DNA from: Alphaproteobacteria bacterium
GTDB lineage: Bacteria > Pseudomonadota > Alphaproteobacteria > Rickettsiales > SXRF01
Direction of reading: 5' to 3'
Length of the DNA: 64,000 bases
Assembly (NCBI GenBank): GCA_025362975.1
Contig: JANYES010000004.1
Coordinates: 142,390 to 206,389 of the forward strand
The notes under the pieces were generated by a model. It did no database searches, was not told the origin of the DNA, and saw only the letters and a program-made list of their open reading frames with translations. The first letter of the stretch is position 1, and each line of letters begins with the position of its first letter. A program made the translations under genes and the position numbers. Below, piece after piece: positions 12,699 through 25,895 of this stretch.

Positions 12699-14777
12699 TT
12701 AAGCAGCCAGCAACGCGAGCAGCAAAATCGCCACGATGTTGGCAATCTTAATCATCGGGTTAACGGCCGGGCCAGCGGTATCCTTATACGGATCACCGAC
12801 AGTGTCGCCGGTCACGGCTGCCTTGTGGGCTTCCGAACCTTTGCCGCCGTGATGGCCTTCTTCAATGTACTTTTTGGCGTTGTCCCATGCACCGCCGCCC
12901 GCTGTCATCGAAATGGCGACGAACAAGCCAGTCACGATAATACCAAGCAGCATGGCGCCGAGCGAAGCGAATGCTTCGACCTGCCCACCGACAGCCTTGA
13001 TAATAAAGTACAGGGCAACCGGGCTGAGCACAGGCAGCATCGACGGAATAATCATTTCCCGAATCGCCGCGCGTGTCAACATATCGACCGCTTTGCCGTA
13101 ATCCGGCTTCGCAGTCCCGGCCATAATGCCCGGGATTTCCTTGAACTGACGGCGCACTTCCCCCACGACGGAACCCGCCGCGCGGCCCACCGCCTTCATG
13201 CCCATCGCACCGAACAAATACGGCAGCAAACCGCCCATCAACAGCCCCACGACCACATACGGGTCGGAGAGTACGAACTGGACGTTCAGGTCAGGGAAAT
13301 AATGCTTCAGCTCTTCGGTATATGCCGCAAACAGAACCAGCGACGCAAGTGCCGCCGAACCGATGGCATAGCCCTTCGTGACCGCCTTCGTAGTGTTGCC
13401 CACCGCGTCGAGCGCATCGGTGACTTCACGCACTTCCTTCGGCAGGCCCGACATTTCGGCGATGCCGCCGGCGTTGTCGGTGACCGGACCGTACGCGTCA
13501 AGGGCCACGATGATACCGGCAAGCGCCAGCATTGTGGTTGCCGAAATCGCGATGCCGAACAGGCCGCACTGGCTGAAAGCGAAGATGATGCCGATACAGA
13601 TCACGATCGCCGGCAGCGCCGTTGCTTCCATCGACACAGCCAGACCCTGAATCACGTTCGTGCCGTGACCCGTGGTAGATGACTGCGCAATCGAGCGCAC
13701 CGGGCGGAATGCCGTCGAGGTGTAGTATTCGGTGATCCACACCAGCGCACCCGTGATAACGAGGCCCGAAACCGAGCACGCAAACACGTTGGAGCCGGTA
13801 AACACCAGCTCACCGATGGTAAAGGTGGAGGAGAAGCCGAGGATTTCCTGCGTCGCCACATAGATCACGCCCAGCGACAACACACTGGTAGCGATCAGCC
13901 CCTTATAAAGCGCCGCCATGATGTTGCGGCTTTTACCCAGCTTTACAAAGAACGTGCCGATGATGGAGGCGATAATGCAACCGCCGCCAATGACGAGCGG
14001 GAAGATCATCATCGCCGCTTGCACGTCGCCCACAAAGTAAATCGCAGCAAGTAACATAGTTGCGACCAGCGTCACGACATAAGTTTCAAACAAATCCGCA
14101 GCCATGCCGGCGCAATCGCCGACGTTGTCGCCCACGTTATCGGCGATCACGGCCGGGTTGCGTGGGTCGTCTTCGGGAATGCCCGCTTCAACTTTGCCGA
14201 CGAGATCCGCGCCGACGTCAGCACCTTTAGTAAAGATACCGCCGCCAAGACGCGCGAAGATGGAGATCAGCGAAGCACCAAACGAAAGTGCTACCAGCGC
14301 TTCAAGGATTTTGCGCATTTCAAGATGCATTGATTGCAACGCCGTAAAGTACAGCGCGATACCGAGCAGCCCTAAGCCCACCACCAGCATGCCGGTAACG
14401 GCACCCGAGGTGAACGCGATGCCCAGCGCCGCCTGCATGCTTTTCTTGGCGGCTTCGGCCGTGCGCACGTTGGCGCGCACCGAAATATTCATGCCAATAA
14501 AACCAGCCAGCCCCGACAAAATTGCGCCGATAGCAAAGCCAACGCCGACATACCAGCCCAGTTTGATGCTGAGCAGGATACAGATCACAACACCGACAAC
14601 CCCGATCGCCTGATACTGGCGGTTGAGATACGCGCGTGCGCCTTCTTGAATCGCGGCTGCGATGTTGACCATTTTTTCCGAGCCTGCGGGCGCGGACATA
14701 ATCAAGCGGCCTGCGTAAAGCCCGTAAAGTAGCGAGGCGACACCGCAGACGATAATAAATATCATGGCTGGAGGCAT
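12699..14777 (-). CDS. hppA: K+-independent H+-translocating membrane pyrophosphatase
   Basis: The 692-aa integral inner-membrane protein couples PPi hydrolysis to proton pumping, with about 16 transmembrane helices. The PPi-binding motif DVGADLVGK and the following [23 protein letters not shown] metal-binding segment are intact, as are the later acidic clusters around [12 protein letters not shown] and [14 protein letters not shown]. The segment [10 protein letters not shown] carries lysine where K+-dependent enzymes have alanine (GNTTAA..KG), which marks the K+-independent H+-pumping subfamily. The ATG at 14777 has a GAAGGATT site; the open frame extends 36 codons upstream without resemblance to the family. 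Confidence 0.95.
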
Positions 14778-14939
14778 AGTCTGTAATCCTTCGTTGTGAT
14801 TTTTAAACTTTGGTTTTCTTAGTCCTGTTGTCTGCGAAAAAAAAGCAGCGACCAAAGTCATGGCAGAAGGAAAAAGACTATGCAAGCGGCATTTAAACCG
14901 CGCAAATTAGTGAAAGAAAATTAATTCGGGCGTGGGCGC

Positions 14940-16839: not shown

Positions 16840-17382
16840 TTAAGCTGAAAGCTTTAGATTTTTGCCGCGCTCGATGGCTTGCTGAATCAGCTCAGCAGCC
16901 CCGTCGGCGTCTTTCCAGCCGGTGACCTTCACCCATTTGTTGGATTCGAGATCCTTGTAATGCTCAAAGAAATGCGCGATCTGCTGAATCAAAATCGGCG
17001 GCAAATCTTTATACGTCTGCACTTCATTATAAAACGGGTGCAGGCGCGACTGCGGCACCGCGAGAATTTTCTCATCTTCGCCGGACTCGTCTTCCATTAT
17101 CAGCGCGCCAATCGGGCGAACCGCGATCACGCAACCCGGCATCAGCGGGCGGCGGCCCACGACCAGCACGTCCGCCGGATCGCCGTCACCCGACAGGGTG
17201 TGGGGGATGAAACCATAGTTACAGGGATACTGCATGGCGGTGTGCAGGAACCGGTCCACGACCAAGGCGCCCGACTCTTTGTCCATTTCGTATTTAATAG
17301 GTTCCGAACCTTGCGGGCATTCAATCACGACGTTGATGTCCCACGGGGCATTTTTACCAATCAATATTTTCTTCATATCCAT
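16840..17382 (-). CDS. ppa: Inorganic pyrophosphatase, family I
   Basis: This 180-aa cytosolic enzyme hydrolyses PPi to two phosphates with Mg2+. The family signature DGDPADVLV holds three metal-binding aspartates, and [14 protein letters not shown] and the [15 protein letters not shown]-terminal segment are standard. Two in-frame ATGs lie two codons apart, and either could be the start. The membrane enzyme hppA lies only 2 kb away, so this region carries both the energy-conserving and the purely hydrolytic route for PPi. Confidence 0.97.
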
Positions 17383-19558: not shown

Positions 19559-20233
19559 ATGCCCATGAGCAAAGTAAAAATCGCCCCATCCATCCTCTCA
19601 GCCGACTTTTCGTGGCTGGGCAATGAAGTCTCCGCCATTACCAAAGCCGGTGCCGACTACCTGCACATCGACGTCATGGACGGCCATTTCGTGCCTAACC
19701 TCACCTTCGGCCCGGCGGTCATCAGCTCCATCAAGCGTTTCACCAAAATCCCGTTCGACGTCCACCTCATGATCGAACCCGTCGACCCTTTCATCGAATC
19801 CTACGTAAAAGCTGGCGCCGACATTATCACCGTGCACGTCGAAGCCGTCACCCATCTCGAACGCACCCTCCAGCTTATTAAATCCTTCGGCGTCAAATGC
19901 GGCGTGTCGCTCGTCCCCAGCACCCCGGCGTGGCACCTTGAATATGTGCTTGATATTGTTGACTTAGTCCTTGTCATGACCGTCAACCCCGGCTTCGGCG
20001 GCCAGGCCTTCATCCCCAGTCAGCTCAAGAAAATCCAGCAGGTCCGCGCCATGATTAACAAGGTTGGCCGCCCCATCGAGCTGGAAGTCGACGGCGGCAT
20101 TAACCCCGAAACCGCCAAGCTGTGCATCGCCGCTGGCGCCGACGTACTTGTTGCCGGCAACGCCGTCTTCGGCGGCAACGAGGTCAAGGACTACCCCCAG
20201 CGCATCGCCCTCCTGCGTGGCGACCCGATCTGA
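19559..20233 (+). CDS. rpe: Ribulose-phosphate 3-epimerase
   Basis: This 224-aa TIM-barrel enzyme interconverts ribulose-5-P and xylulose-5-P in the pentose phosphate pathway. [13 protein letters not shown] at the N-terminus, [17 protein letters not shown] (catalytic Asp and metal-binding His), the DVHLMI strand, [13 protein letters not shown] and [11 protein letters not shown] (second catalytic Asp) are all present. Two ATGs lie two codons apart at the start. yacG follows 2 bp after the stop, probably in one transcript with rsmB. Confidence 0.97.
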
Positions 20234-20235
20234 GC

Positions 20236-20406
20236 ATGACCTGCCCGATCTGCAATAAACCCACCGTCGAGGCTTACAAGCCGTTCTGCTCCAAACGCTG
20301 CACCGATGTCGATCTCGCCCGCTGGTTCAATGAAGCCTATTCCGCCCCCGTCATCGAAATAGACGACGAGCCCGACGAAGAACCGTCCCCCGCCAACGAC
20401 AACTAA
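20236..20406 (+). CDS. yacG: DNA gyrase inhibitor YacG-type zinc protein
   Basis: This 56-aa protein begins MTCPICNKPT and continues to PFCSKRCTDVDLARWFNE, which supplies the four zinc-binding cysteines of YacG (C-x2-C...C-x3-C). The acidic Glu/Asp-Pro tail is typical of the alphaproteobacterial form. In E. coli YacG binds GyrB and blocks DNA binding. The ATG is 2 bp after the rpe stop. In related bacteria it is often next to other small housekeeping genes. Confidence 0.92.
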   Translation: MTCPICNKPTVEAYKPFCSKRCTDVDLARWFNEAYSAPVIEIDDEPDEEPSPANDN

Positions 20407-20504: not shown

Positions 20505-23459
20505 ATGAAACAGCTCCCCAAAAACTACGATCATCAAGCCCGCGAATCATTCTGGCAGCAACACTGGGTCGACACCACTGTCCACCACTTCAAAGACGAT
20601 CTCCCCCGCGACCAGACCTTCGTCCTCGACACCCCACCCCCGACCGTATCGGGCGTCCTGCATATGGGCCATATCTTTAGTTATACACAGGCTGACTTCG
20701 TCGCCCGCTATCAGCGCATGTCCGGCAAGGACGTCTTCTACCCGATGGGCTTCGACGACAACGGCCTACCGACCGAACGTCTCGTCGAGAAAATTAAGGG
20801 CGTGCGCGGCTCAGCCATGCCCCGCGCCGACTTCGTCGCCCTATGCCGTGAAGTGGTGAAAGAGGCCGAGGATGAATTCAGGCGATTGTTTAAGAGCGCC
20901 GCCTTAAGTGTTGATTGGCGTCAAGAATACCAAACCATCAGCGATCAATCTCGCCAACTTTCGCAAGCCTCCTTCGTTGACCTCCTGAAAAAGAACGAAG
21001 CCTACCGCGACTTTCGCCCCACCTACTGGGACTGGGTCGACCAAACCGCCATCGCCCAAGCCGAGACCGAAGAAAAAGAACTGCAAGGCGTGCAAATAAC
21101 CATACCTTTCGGCATCATGGATGCCACTCAGTGGTCCAACTCATTCCCCCGCCCAGACTTTAAGTCACTCACCCAAGTCCACGTCATGACCACCCGCCCC
21201 GAGCTACTTGGTGCCTGCGTGGCCCTGATGTGCCACCCGGACGACAAGGACCAGTTCACCGGTAAGGTTGCCGTCAGCCCACTCTTTAACGTCGTGCTGC
21301 CCATCTGCTTCGATGAGAAGGTCGATAAGGAAAAAGGCACTGGGTTTGTGATGTGCTGCTCGTGGGGTGACGACACCGACAAGGAGTGGATTGCTAAATA
21401 CAACCTCGCATGGCGTCCGCTCATCGGATTGGATGGCCGTTTACGGGTAGAGAACCAAGAGGGGGGCATCGCCTTCCGCGCTGGCAGAGATGGCGAAAGC
21501 GGCAAAGCCACCTCTCCGCTCACTAGCGCTAATTGCTTCGACATTACAAAAGCTAAAGAGATCTTCGCCCTAATAGAGGGGGCCAAGCTCATCCGCGATA
21601 TCAAGAACGAAAACAGTGCCAAAGGACGCGTCATCAGGCTGCTTGAGGGGGCTTCACTTCTGGTCCCCACCGGCGATAAACTCGAAACAGTTATCCCCAA
21701 ACTCCAGATGGTCAAATGCGCTGAGCGCTCCGGCACCCCCATTGAAATCATTCCAACCTTCCAGTGGTTCATCCGCATTGTCGATAAAAAGGAACAACTC
21801 CTTGCAAAAGGAGTAGAATGTACGTGGTATCCCGAATACATGCGCATCCGCCTGAACCAGTGGATCGAGGGCCTGAAGGAAGATTGGTGCATTTCGCGCC
21901 AGCGCTTCTTCGGCGTACCGTTCCCTGTGTGGTATTTAAGAAAAGTTGGCGATTCTGACCCAAATAATTGGCAAGCAGTCAGTGCTAATTTTGCGCAACT
22001 ACCTGTTGATCCAACTATTGATTTACCTAAGGGTATTATACCAATTGAAGGTAACGTTAACTTTGGCGATATAGCTGGGCGAGCTTGTGTCGCAATAGAG
22101 GATGTTTATAATATTAAAGGTGAATTGGCATTTAAAGGCGATAATCAGTCGCATATCGATGTAATTGCAGATATCGACGTCCTCGACACATGGGCCACCT
22201 CTTCCATCAGCCCGCAGCTGAATTCTCGTGGTATTTGTAAGGACTTCGCCGTCGATCCTAAACGACATGCTAAACTCTTCCCAGCCGATCTGCGCCCTCA
22301 GGCCCACGAGATCATCCGCACATGGGCGTTCTACACCATCGTAAAGGCCCATCTGCACCAGAACACCATCCCGTGGAAGAACGTAATGATTTCGGGTTGG
22401 TGCCTCGCCGCCGATAAGTCAAAAATGAGCAAATCCAAAGGCAACGTCATCACTCCTGTGGCATTGATTGAGGAAAAGGGCTCCGATGCCGTTCGCTACT
22501 GGGCGTCCACTTCGCGACTTGGCACCGATACTGCATTTTCTGAAGACCTTCTGAAAATAGGTCGCAAACTGGTCACAAAGCTCTGGAACGCCACCGCCTT
22601 TGCCGCCATCAACCTCGATAAAATGACCGGAAAACCGACCACGGCCCAACAGGATTTTGTGAGCGGAATCATTTCGCAGCCCCTCGATTTGTGGGTTCTC
22701 TCCCGTCTCAAGCGCTGCATTAGCATCGCCACGAAAAACTTTGAATCCTTTGAATATTGCGACGCTCGCGTCGCCATCGAAGACTTCTTCTGGAACGACT
22801 TCTGCGACAATTATCTAGAACTCGTCAAAGCCCGCGCTTACGGCGAGACCAAGGGTGACCAGCAATCGGCCCTCTACACCATATATCACTGCTTGGAGAC
22901 CCTCTTGAGGCTGTTCGCTCCCTTCGTCCCCCACATCACTGAAGAACTCTATAGCCATATCTTCGATGACCGCTATGAGTTGGCTGGCTCAGTCCACGCC
23001 CGCGGCACATGGCCCAGGGAAACGGACTATCCTTATGACGCCACCGCCGAGCTGGCCGGTATGGCAGCCGTGGATGTGCTTAATGTCATTCGCAAGGTGA
23101 AGTCCGAATCCAACGTGTCAATCAAAACGCCGGTGCGCATGGTCGAGGTATCGGCCAAGGGCAAGGAAGCCACGTGGACACACTTAAAATCCATTCTCGA
23201 AGACCTCAAAGCCGCTGGCACCGCCGATAACGTTACGGAAGTTCCAGCCGGTTCGCTGGACCATACGACCGACCGGGGCTGGTTCGACGTAAGGGTTATC
23301 TTAACCAAGATCGAAGAACATAAACGTAACGCCGACCAGGCGGATCACCAGAAGCTCGAGGGCAAGGTGGTTCACGGGCCGGGCGCGCCGGATTTGTCCA
23401 AGCATGTGGTCAAAGTTCAGTTGAACGACTTAAAGGAATCGCTGACGCGCCAGAAATAA
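20505..23459 (+). CDS. valS: Valyl-tRNA synthetase, archaeal/Rickettsia type
   Basis: This 984-aa class I synthetase charges tRNA-Val. The HIGH motif reads LHMGH within TPPPTVSGVLHMGHIFSYTQ, and KMSKS lies in DKSKMSKSKGN near residue 645. The stretch KDVFYPMGFDDNGLPTERL is characteristic of archaeal and rickettsial ValRS; ordinary bacterial ValRS has a PGTDHAGIATQ-type sequence here. DTWATSSISPQLNS follows the same pattern. The editing domain lies at about 190-430 and the anticodon-binding domain is C-terminal. A stretch at about 21945-22175 is visibly more AT-rich, with different codon choice, and encodes an unusually long loop before DTWATSS. Confidence 0.96.
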   Translation: MKQLPKNYDHQARESFWQQHWVDTTVHHFKDDLPRDQTFVLDTPPPTVSGVLHMGHIFSYTQADFVARYQRMSGKDVFYPMGFDDNGLPTERLVEKIKGVRGSAMPRADFVALCREVVKEAEDEFRRLFKSAALSVDWRQEYQTISDQSRQLSQASFVDLLKKNEAYRDFRPTYWDWVDQTAIAQAETEEKELQGVQITIPFGIMDATQWSNSFPRPDFKSLTQVHVMTTRPELLGACVALMCHPDDKDQFTGKVAVSPLFNVVLPICFDEKVDKEKGTGFVMCCSWGDDTDKEWIAKYNLAWRPLIGLDGRLRVENQEGGIAFRAGRDGESGKATSPLTSANCFDITKAKEIFALIEGAKLIRDIKNENSAKGRVIRLLEGASLLVPTGDKLETVIPKLQMVKCAERSGTPIEIIPTFQWFIRIVDKKEQLLAKGVECTWYPEYMRIRLNQWIEGLKEDWCISRQRFFGVPFPVWYLRKVGDSDPNNWQAVSANFAQLPVDPTIDLPKGIIPIEGNVNFGDIAGRACVAIEDVYNIKGELAFKGDNQSHIDVIADIDVLDTWATSSISPQLNSRGICKDFAVDPKRHAKLFPADLRPQAHEIIRTWAFYTIVKAHLHQNTIPWKNVMISGWCLAADKSKMSKSKGNVITPVALIEEKGSDAVRYWASTSRLGTDTAFSEDLLKIGRKLVTKLWNATAFAAINLDKMTGKPTTAQQDFVSGIISQPLDLWVLSRLKRCISIATKNFESFEYCDARVAIEDFFWNDFCDNYLELVKARAYGETKGDQQSALYTIYHCLETLLRLFAPFVPHITEELYSHIFDDRYELAGSVHARGTWPRETDYPYDATAELAGMAAVDVLNVIRKVKSESNVSIKTPVRMVEVSAKGKEATWTHLKSILEDLKAAGTADNVTEVPAGSLDHTTDRGWFDVRVILTKIEEHKRNADQADHQKLEGKVVHGPGAPDLSKHVVKVQLNDLKESLTRQK

Positions 23460-23460
23460 T

Positions 23461-23763
23461 ATGGATAACACCCCAGATAACATGATGGAAAGGCACGCCC
23501 ATTACCGCGCCAAATATGACGCGGCTAAGAAGATCCATGTCTATTTCATCCCCGCTATCGACCAGAACGAAAAGCAGAAAATGTACTTTTACGCCATCGC
23601 CAGCGAGATGCTGCATGATGAAATGCTGCGCTCGCTTAAGGTGGGGGTGATTCCGCATTTCGCGGTGGTGGTGGACAAGGGCGTGGGCGAGCCGACGCCG
23701 GAGACCAAAGCCAAAATTAAAGCCTATTACGGCTTCGACCACGATCATTACGCGAACGCCTAG
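23461..23763 (+). CDS. Conserved-looking hypothetical protein, 100 aa
   Basis: The gene begins one base after the valS stop codon, so it is probably translated from the same mRNA. The acidic/basic mixed 100-aa product has no signal peptide or membrane segment. Notable parts are KKIHVYFIPAIDQNEKQKMYFYAIASEMLHDEMLRSLK and a His/Asp-rich end (YGFDHDHYANA). I do not recognise a family. Close coupling to valS suggests co-expression only. It overlaps the convergent MFS gene by 4 bp. Confidence 0.7.
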   Translation: MDNTPDNMMERHAHYRAKYDAAKKIHVYFIPAIDQNEKQKMYFYAIASEMLHDEMLRSLKVGVIPHFAVVVDKGVGEPTPETKAKIKAYYGFDHDHYANA

Positions 23764-25079: not shown

Positions 25080-25895
25080 TTAAGCGGATATTTGCATGGT
25101 TTCGTATTCCACTGGTGACAGGTAATCGTTAGCGGAATGGGTTCTGATTCTGTTATAGAACACCTCTATATATTCAAAGATCGCATACTTGGCCTCCTCT
25201 CTGGTTTTAAATTTCTGGTGGTGAGTACATTCCGTTTTCATGGTGTGGAAGAAGCTTTCGGCGACGGCGTTATCCCAGCAGTTCCCCTTTCTGCTCATGC
25301 TCTGGAGGATCGCGTGGTCCCTGATGATTTCCCGATGGCTGGCGGATGCATACTGGCTACCGCGGTCAGTATGCCAGATGAGTCCTTCGCCCGGCTTGCG
25401 CTTCCAGAGAGCCATTAAGAGGGCGTTATTGACCAACTGCGCCTGCATGCGGCTATCCATAGACCATCCAACAAGCTGCCTGGAATAAAGGTCAATCACG
25501 ACAGCAAGATATAGCCAGCCTTCATCTGTTGGAATATAGGTTATATCTCCAACCCAGTAGCGGTTTGGCTGCGTAACCGCAAACTGCCGCGCCAATAAGT
25601 TTGGAGAAATACCCAGGGAATGTTTTGAATCCGTCGTCGCCTTAAACTTACGCTTCGTTTTACATTCCATGCCTGCTGCCGCCATCAACTGGCCGATGCG
25701 CTTGCGACCAGCCACCACACCCTGCCGAGCCAGTTTCCTGACTATGCGACGTGTACCGTAGGTGCCGCGCCCCTCGGTGAAAATCACTTTGATCATTTGG
25801 GTCAACTCCTCATTCTGCTTTTCTCTATTCGTTCCAGGATTGCGTAACCATGCATAGTAACTGCTGCGTGATACCTTCATGAAATCGCACATCAC
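25080..25895 (-). CDS. IS3-family transposase OrfB (catalytic part)
   Basis: This 271-aa open frame carries the DDE integrase core: [13 protein letters not shown] (first Asp), [11 protein letters not shown] (second Asp) and [14 protein letters not shown] (Glu), with an N-terminal HTH_21-type segment ([16 protein letters not shown]). The frame actually extends upstream past the ATG to overlap orfA ([23 protein letters not shown]), so the functional product is an OrfAB fusion made by -1 frameshifting, as is known for IS3 elements. All three catalytic residues are present and nothing is truncated. Confidence 0.93.

Follow-up and report, generated by a model that had tools for sequence, protein, structure and literature searches.

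An archaeal-type valyl-tRNA synthetase in a large-genome member of the Rickettsiales and its probable acquisition on the stem of the order

The window (the whole stretch of DNA that was analyzed, 64,000 nucleotides) encodes an archaeal-type valyl-tRNA synthetase (ValRS). This is very probably the housekeeping ValRS of a large-genome lineage of Rickettsiales, the type having displaced bacterial valS in the stem lineage of the order and having been inherited vertically since. The archaeal type of the Rickettsia ValRS is a long-known trait; what is new is the order-wide depth of the trait and its sister group. The gene is ordinary in itself, a housekeeping and presumably essential valS with a complete reading frame from ATG to stop codon (Table 1). 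From what is known of the family, the enzyme would activate valine with ATP in its class Ia catalytic domain (HMGH and KMSKS) and charge tRNA-Val, and its editing domain is predicted to remove mischarged threonine.

Among the NCBIfam models, the window protein passed the cut-off of archaeal-type ValRS (NF009687; 929.8 bits, cut-off 738) and missed those of alt_ValS (NF000540; 763 bits, cut-off 900), bacterial-type ValRS (NF004349; 447.3 bits, cut-off 704), and the general ValRS model (TIGR00422; 579 bits, cut-off 612.1), the last of which does not separate the types, as 12 of 15 named-locus genomes pass it and the Rickettsiales row L009 reaches 694.6. Pfam domains PF00133 and PF08264 were found. 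PF10458, the bacterial C-terminal tRNA-binding arm, gave no match in a Pfam scan of the window ValRS and was found in the bacterial-type controls L062 and L032 but not in a third, L044, which is short (806 amino acids [aa]). The solved chain scoring best by sequence is the Thermus ValRS 1gax (2e-58).

Motifs were compared between the window protein and 25 of the other 86 alignment rows, giving 22 archaeal-type and four bacterial-like rows (L042, L044, L045, and L062). At the editing site, the Lys and Thr of the bacterial-like rows correspond to Met and Cys, respectively, in the archaeal-type rows (Ala in place of Cys in L119 only), while two Asp residues are kept in all 26 rows. The equivalent positions in the 1gax alignment are Lys270, Thr272, Asp276, and Asp279 of Thermus, which we take to be editing-site residues. 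The archaeal-type HIGH and NGLPTER forms and the Met/Cys editing-site signature are all present in the window ValRS, as are DWCISRQRFFG (residues 460 to 470) and DTWATSSISPQLNS. Together with the profile scores, these motifs bear out the sequence-only reading, which had called the gene archaeal type. Relative to the Rickettsiaceae-like L009, the window protein carries extra segments at residues 210 to 224, 320 to 355, and 516 to 552 and in the tail; several of its extra segments are common to rows of its own family or order, and four of the five remaining family rows in the alignment also have the tail, which L009 lacks.

Table 1. Positions in the window of valS, its motifs and domains, and nearby genes
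Feature	Position	Strand	Basis
valS, archaeal-type valine--tRNA ligase, complete, 984 aa	20505..23459	+	ORF, NCBIfam, Pfam, solved-chain match
HIGH region TPPPTVSGVLHMGH, archaeal-type form, residues 43-56	20631..20672	+	alignment
GFDDNGLPTER, residues 82-92 (bacterial-like rows: GTDHAGIATQ or GTDHASIATQ)	20748..20780	+	alignment
Editing-domain motif TTRPELLG, residues 229-236	21189..21212	+	alignment
Editing-site motif GTGFVMCCSWGDDTD, residues 278-292	21336..21380	+	alignment, 1gax match
KMSKS, residues 640-644	22422..22436	+	alignment
Anticodon-binding domain PF08264, residues 728-879	22686..23141	+	Pfam
C-terminal tail, residues 932-984	23298..23456	+	alignment
rpe, ribulose-phosphate 3-epimerase, upstream neighbor	19559..20233	+	domain scan
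yacG-like ORF, PF03884 on residues 39-84, upstream neighbor; true start probably later	20122..20406	+	domain scan
100-aa ORF, starting two bases beyond the last base of valS	23461..23763	+	ORF list
Transposase-like ORF, integrase core (rve) and HTH_21 domains	25083..25895	-	
Membrane H+-pyrophosphatase and soluble pyrophosphatase genes	12699..14885 and 16840..17382	-	

The source genome contains a single ValRS, as judged by TIGR00422 over 3,256,751 bases in 28 contigs (98.31% complete), so that the search for a second, bacterial-type valS, advised by the sequence-only reading, turned up none; another copy might strictly still lie in an assembly gap. The other TIGR00422 matches are open frames of 1154, 856, 504, and 446 aa, all taken to be related synthetases of class Ia. 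The 1154-aa frame is an isoleucyl-tRNA synthetase (IleRS) that passes TIGR00392, and the 856- and 504-aa frames are read, by size and by the part of the profile matched, as leucyl- and methionyl-tRNA synthetases (LeuRS and MetRS). The idea that IleRS and ValRS might have been replaced together was also considered; passing TIGR00392 does not fix the type of the IleRS.

The gene order RsmB-Rpe-YacG-ValRS-orf100-MFS is identical in the same-genus genome G002. In the other four family loci, G007 retains the 100-aa ORF, G008 has both this ORF and the MFS gene, and G006 and G010 have neither, so that the ORF lies beside valS in three of the five family loci examined (G002, G007, and G008). It has no Pfam match and is probably cotranscribed with valS. 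Outside the family, no valS neighbor was shared among 22 other loci, except for a weak RsmB-like match at the edge of L085. Among the loci examined, gene order around valS is thus conserved within the genus, to some extent across the family, and not outside it. A transposase-like ORF lies near the valS region. Genes for a membrane H+-pyrophosphatase and a soluble pyrophosphatase lie near each other upstream of rsmB-rpe-valS in an arrangement that is the same in G002.

The source assembly has a contamination estimate of 3.56%, and the gene might on that account be a contaminant or a recent import in this assembly alone. This is scarcely credible, as the G+C content of valS (0.534; GC3, 0.639) fits that of the window (0.539; median GC3, 0.69 over 12 genes), the gene order recurs in G002, and the valS type is common to the family and order.

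The order of the window genome is the Rickettsiales, shared with Ehrlichia, Rickettsia, and Wolbachia, because of the joins in an RpoB tree and the presence of named genomes of these genera in the same order. RpoB was recovered from 26 of 30 genomes searched (it was not found in G002, G013, G076, or G422), giving 25 distinct sequences (G125 and G426 are identical), and this single-gene tree was built under LG+G4. Order member G034 joined Ehrlichia canis and E. ruminantium, and order member G026 joined the Rickettsia endosymbiont of Bradysia (both 100/100); the window genome grouped with G007, G031, and G019 (100/99). The long-branched order members G017 and G030 fell away from the rest, in a join flagged by the program. 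Furthermore, E. ruminantium (G428), E. canis (G429), the Bradysia Rickettsia (G430), and Wolbachia wPpe (G432) match the same-order genomes G466, G551, G514, and G652, respectively, in the position of valS and the length of its frame. Larger and G+C-richer genomes and a predicted free-living life are described for basal Rickettsiales in parts of PMC9352585 and PMC10847448, and passages of the latter give sizes often of >2 Mb and a G+C content averaging 40 to 52%, with a maximum of 61%, for the basal families. The family of the window genome appears to be one of these basal, large-genome families. The sequence-only reading had placed the gene in an alphaproteobacterial context, which is true and incomplete, the genome being itself rickettsialean.

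Archaeal-type ValRS is nearly universal in the sampled order. Among relatives, 33 of 37 genomes (the source genome included) pass the NF009687 cut-off; G011 (698.9 bits) and G018 (364.6 bits) have partial sequences below it, and G012 (87% complete) and G014 (55% complete) gave no ValRS match. In an order survey of 260 genomes, sampled under a completeness limit of 85, NF009687 matched at an E value of ≤1e-100 in 248 and scored above the cut-off in 236, the other 12 matches falling under it. Bacterial-type NF004349 was matched in none of the 260 at an E value of ≤1e-180, a limit that could miss a fragmented bacterial copy; of the 14 genomes in the control set, 9 scored above its cut-off. When the 12 order genomes lacking an NF009687 match were searched again at an E value of ≤1e-10, none rose above the cut-off. 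Most of their matches were IleRS, LeuRS, or MetRS like; G627 and possibly also G599 and G475 contain fragments that resemble ValRS. One genome, G585 (0.7 Mb, one contig, 97% complete), gave IleRS-, LeuRS-, and MetRS-like matches and no ValRS match; its genus code (g322) is that of the genome matching Wolbachia wPpe. In Wolbachia wPpe (L091, from G432; G652 is apparently the same genome), the ValRS frame is broken by a stop, through either sequencing error or decay.

In a class survey of 386 genomes, 15 scored above the NF009687 cut-off, comprising all four from the order of the window and 11 of the 382 others (G055, G069, G076, G098, G115, G125, G172, G188, G282, G298, and G352); 16 of the 386 gave no match at an E value of ≤1e-95. 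The 11 genomes outside the order, together with a genome of 3.26 Mb and a window of 54% G+C unlike those of classical Rickettsiales, could suggest that the window lineage belongs to the Alphaproteobacteria outside the Rickettsiales and obtained the gene on its own, in which case the transfer would be wider than known. This is most improbable given the RpoB joins of G034 and G026, the named Ehrlichia, Rickettsia, and Wolbachia genomes that match members of the order, the nesting of the window ValRS within the Rickettsiales-type clade, and the description, in part of PMC10847448, of basal Rickettsiales in the size and G+C ranges given above.

A scan of genome contigs, with search patterns that favor Rickettsiales-like motifs, kept the best 80 of 587 relatives. 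In a quick tree of 87 rows (LG+G4), 40 Rickettsiales-type rows grouped together (98), with five other alphaproteobacterial rows (G076, G125, L085, G282, and G352) as sister (99). Next out (100) was a group of 12 rows from Actinobacteria, Acidobacteria, Paraburkholderia, Hydrogenedentes, Bacteriovoracaceae, and a second alphaproteobacterial set (G055, G069, G188, G298, and G098); Clostridia, Dependentiae, Chloroflexi, and others lay further out, and DPANN archaea and G115 lay beyond them. A first careful tree (50 rows, LG+C20+F+G4) recovered the Rickettsiales with the sister set (100/99), the Rickettsiales alone (73/79), and the Rickettsiales and sister set joined with the second group (only 94/68), while deeper forks, including the position of DPANN, were not settled. 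A second careful tree (47 rows), denser in Rickettsiales, gave one Rickettsiales-type clade of 34 rows that includes the window (98/98), with five other alphaproteobacterial rows as its sister (100/99). The 34 rows comprise 24 from the order of the window by kinship, 6 with Rickettsiales names, and 4 that carry no such label (L070, L073, L074, and L075). The rows omitted from both careful trees include the divergent G115 and the fast rows from G017 and G030, the latter two falling within the Rickettsiales-type clade of the quick tree. No tree contains G172 or the fragment G415.

The window ValRS falls outside the bacterial-type rows in the 87- and 50-row trees, and its place inside the Rickettsiales-type clade upholds the claim that it is of the kind known from Rickettsiales. 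As the 34 rows form one clade, the type was acquired before the sampled families of Rickettsiales diverged. Distances in ValRS and RpoB are correlated (Mantel r, 0.73; P = 5e-5; 20,000 permutations) across 11 of the 14 Rickettsiales-side genomes with both genes (G017, G030, and the interrupted G432 were excluded). In addition, the sister-set genomes G282, G352, and G125 and the genome of L085 lie outside the Rickettsiales rows by RpoB, the last grouping with G217 rather than with family f76. From the shape of the tree, an archaeal-type gene probably displaced the bacterial valS on the Rickettsiales stem, the donor probably being another bacterium that already had this type of ValRS, and descent within the order would have been vertical afterwards.

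Direct uptake of the gene from an archaeon by the rickettsialean ancestor is unlikely. The type is present in archaea, a Woesearchaeota row scoring 1063.6 bits with NF009687, and in a control set of 14 genomes, among them four archaea, 4 (perhaps the archaeal ones) are above the NF009687 cut-off. Nevertheless, the rows closest to the Rickettsiales-type ValRS are bacterial in all three trees, and in an approximately unbiased (AU) test a single clade of the Rickettsiales, the sister set, and the five DPANN rows was rejected (log likelihood lower by 51.06; p-AU, 0.0102), a P value that is post hoc since the groups were defined from the quick tree. The R. prowazekii ValRS, grouped with that of tupanvirus, also lies among bacterial sequences in a part of PMC11304981. 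Because grouping with the sampled DPANN was rejected, there is no support for a direct archaeal donor, the five DPANN rows being the archaeal sampling in the trees. The archaeal type of the enzyme, as given in the sequence-only reading, stands.

Archaeal-type ValRS was probably gained at least twice in the Alphaproteobacteria, since an equally post hoc test rejected the Rickettsiales, the sister set, and the second alphaproteobacterial set as one clade (log likelihood lower by 171.57; p-AU, 4.5e-08). The second gain would be a separate entry of an alt_ValS-like type. Two types occur within single genera, with G098 of archaeal type versus G203 and G357 in the bacterial range in genus g90 (family f84) and G188 of archaeal type versus G274 in the bacterial range in genus g166 (family f63); G203 and G274 are on the bacterial side of the quick tree. 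Such mixing points to an alt_ValS-like gene having recently taken the place of the entire bacterial-type gene. G069 carries ValRS of the two types, archaeal and bacterial (L031 and L032), on separate contigs, with 4% contamination, and this double set reflects either a transitional state or contamination.

The archaeal type thus changes from a curiosity of Rickettsia to a derived character common to almost all of the sampled order, including its large-genome lineages, and may serve as a simple presence/absence marker for Rickettsiales. The expectation that the occurrence of this gene could date or widen the transfer held in part. The acquisition now predates the divergence of the sampled families, but presence in this genome does not widen the transfer because the genome belongs to an order already known for the type; the story is widened instead by the sister versions in non-Rickettsiales Alphaproteobacteria. 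Among the titles listed in a literature search, none deals with ValRS across basal Rickettsiales, the main texts of PMC9352585 and PMC10847448 lack the terms “valyl,” “valS,” and “tRNA synthetase,” and the portions covered of PMC2905365, PMC4810243, and PMC1182365 have no bearing on the archaeal type of the Rickettsia ValRS.

The tree suggests a path of transfer from bacterium to bacterium. More speculatively, the archaeal type may have moved about among bacteria and been exchanged between the stem of the Rickettsiales and a few other lineages of Alphaproteobacteria, although this is less likely than not. If so, the stems of donor and recipient must have coexisted, so that the sister relationship would link their relative ages and might help in the relative dating of Rickettsiales and other Alphaproteobacteria. 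If, in addition, the archaeal type became fixed before even the large-genome lineages radiated and the mitochondrial ValRS is of bacterial type, the trait would be a discrete character against a position of mitochondria inside Rickettsiales; VARS and VARS2 are given as bacterial in a part of PMC8879553.

Records of mobile elements were also searched. Viral contigs scanned with the window protein gave no relative, and the 67 phage records with a match were all at <60% identity (22.5 to 27.9% in the ten listed), some of the listed matches being large bacterial sequences. The G352 protein matched 63 plasmid records, all at <60% identity, and the first five listed (Nonomuraea, Streptomyces, Burkholderia glumae, Variovorax, and Paraburkholderia) were 39 to 43% identical; the Nonomuraea record, at 11.85 Mb, is hardly a plasmid. 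By their similarity, the listed sequences are taken as archaeal type, and valS on plasmid records of the other four suggests that the type can ride mobile replicons.

Compared with known systems, the window ValRS agrees with the NF009687/PRK13208 type in its score above the cut-off, its HIGH, NGLPTER, KMSKS, and editing motifs, and its lack of a PF10458 match. It is longer (984 aa) than the archaeal-type ValRS of the Rickettsiaceae-like G026 (820 aa). The Ehrlichia, Wolbachia, and Rickettsia enzymes L080, L090, and L084 (47-row tree) and L081 (quick tree) form one clade with it; L080 and L084 carry the same motif signatures, and L080, L081, and L084 are 45 to 46% identical to it. Enzymes of other Alphaproteobacteria (G282, G352, G125, and L085) are 50 to 51% identical and, with G076, form the sister clade. 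The alt_ValS enzymes (NF000540) of Arthrobacter, Paraburkholderia, and others belong to the same archaeal-type superfamily and also pass NF009687, but score 1447.8 (Arthrobacter) and 1376.7 (Paraburkholderia) with NF000540, whereas the window protein falls below that cut-off. Bacterial-type ValRS (NF004349) catalyzes the same reaction with the same class Ia fold as the archaeal type, and the bacterial-like rows differ from the window in having PPPNVTG, a GTDHAGIATQ-like motif, and Lys/Thr at the editing site.
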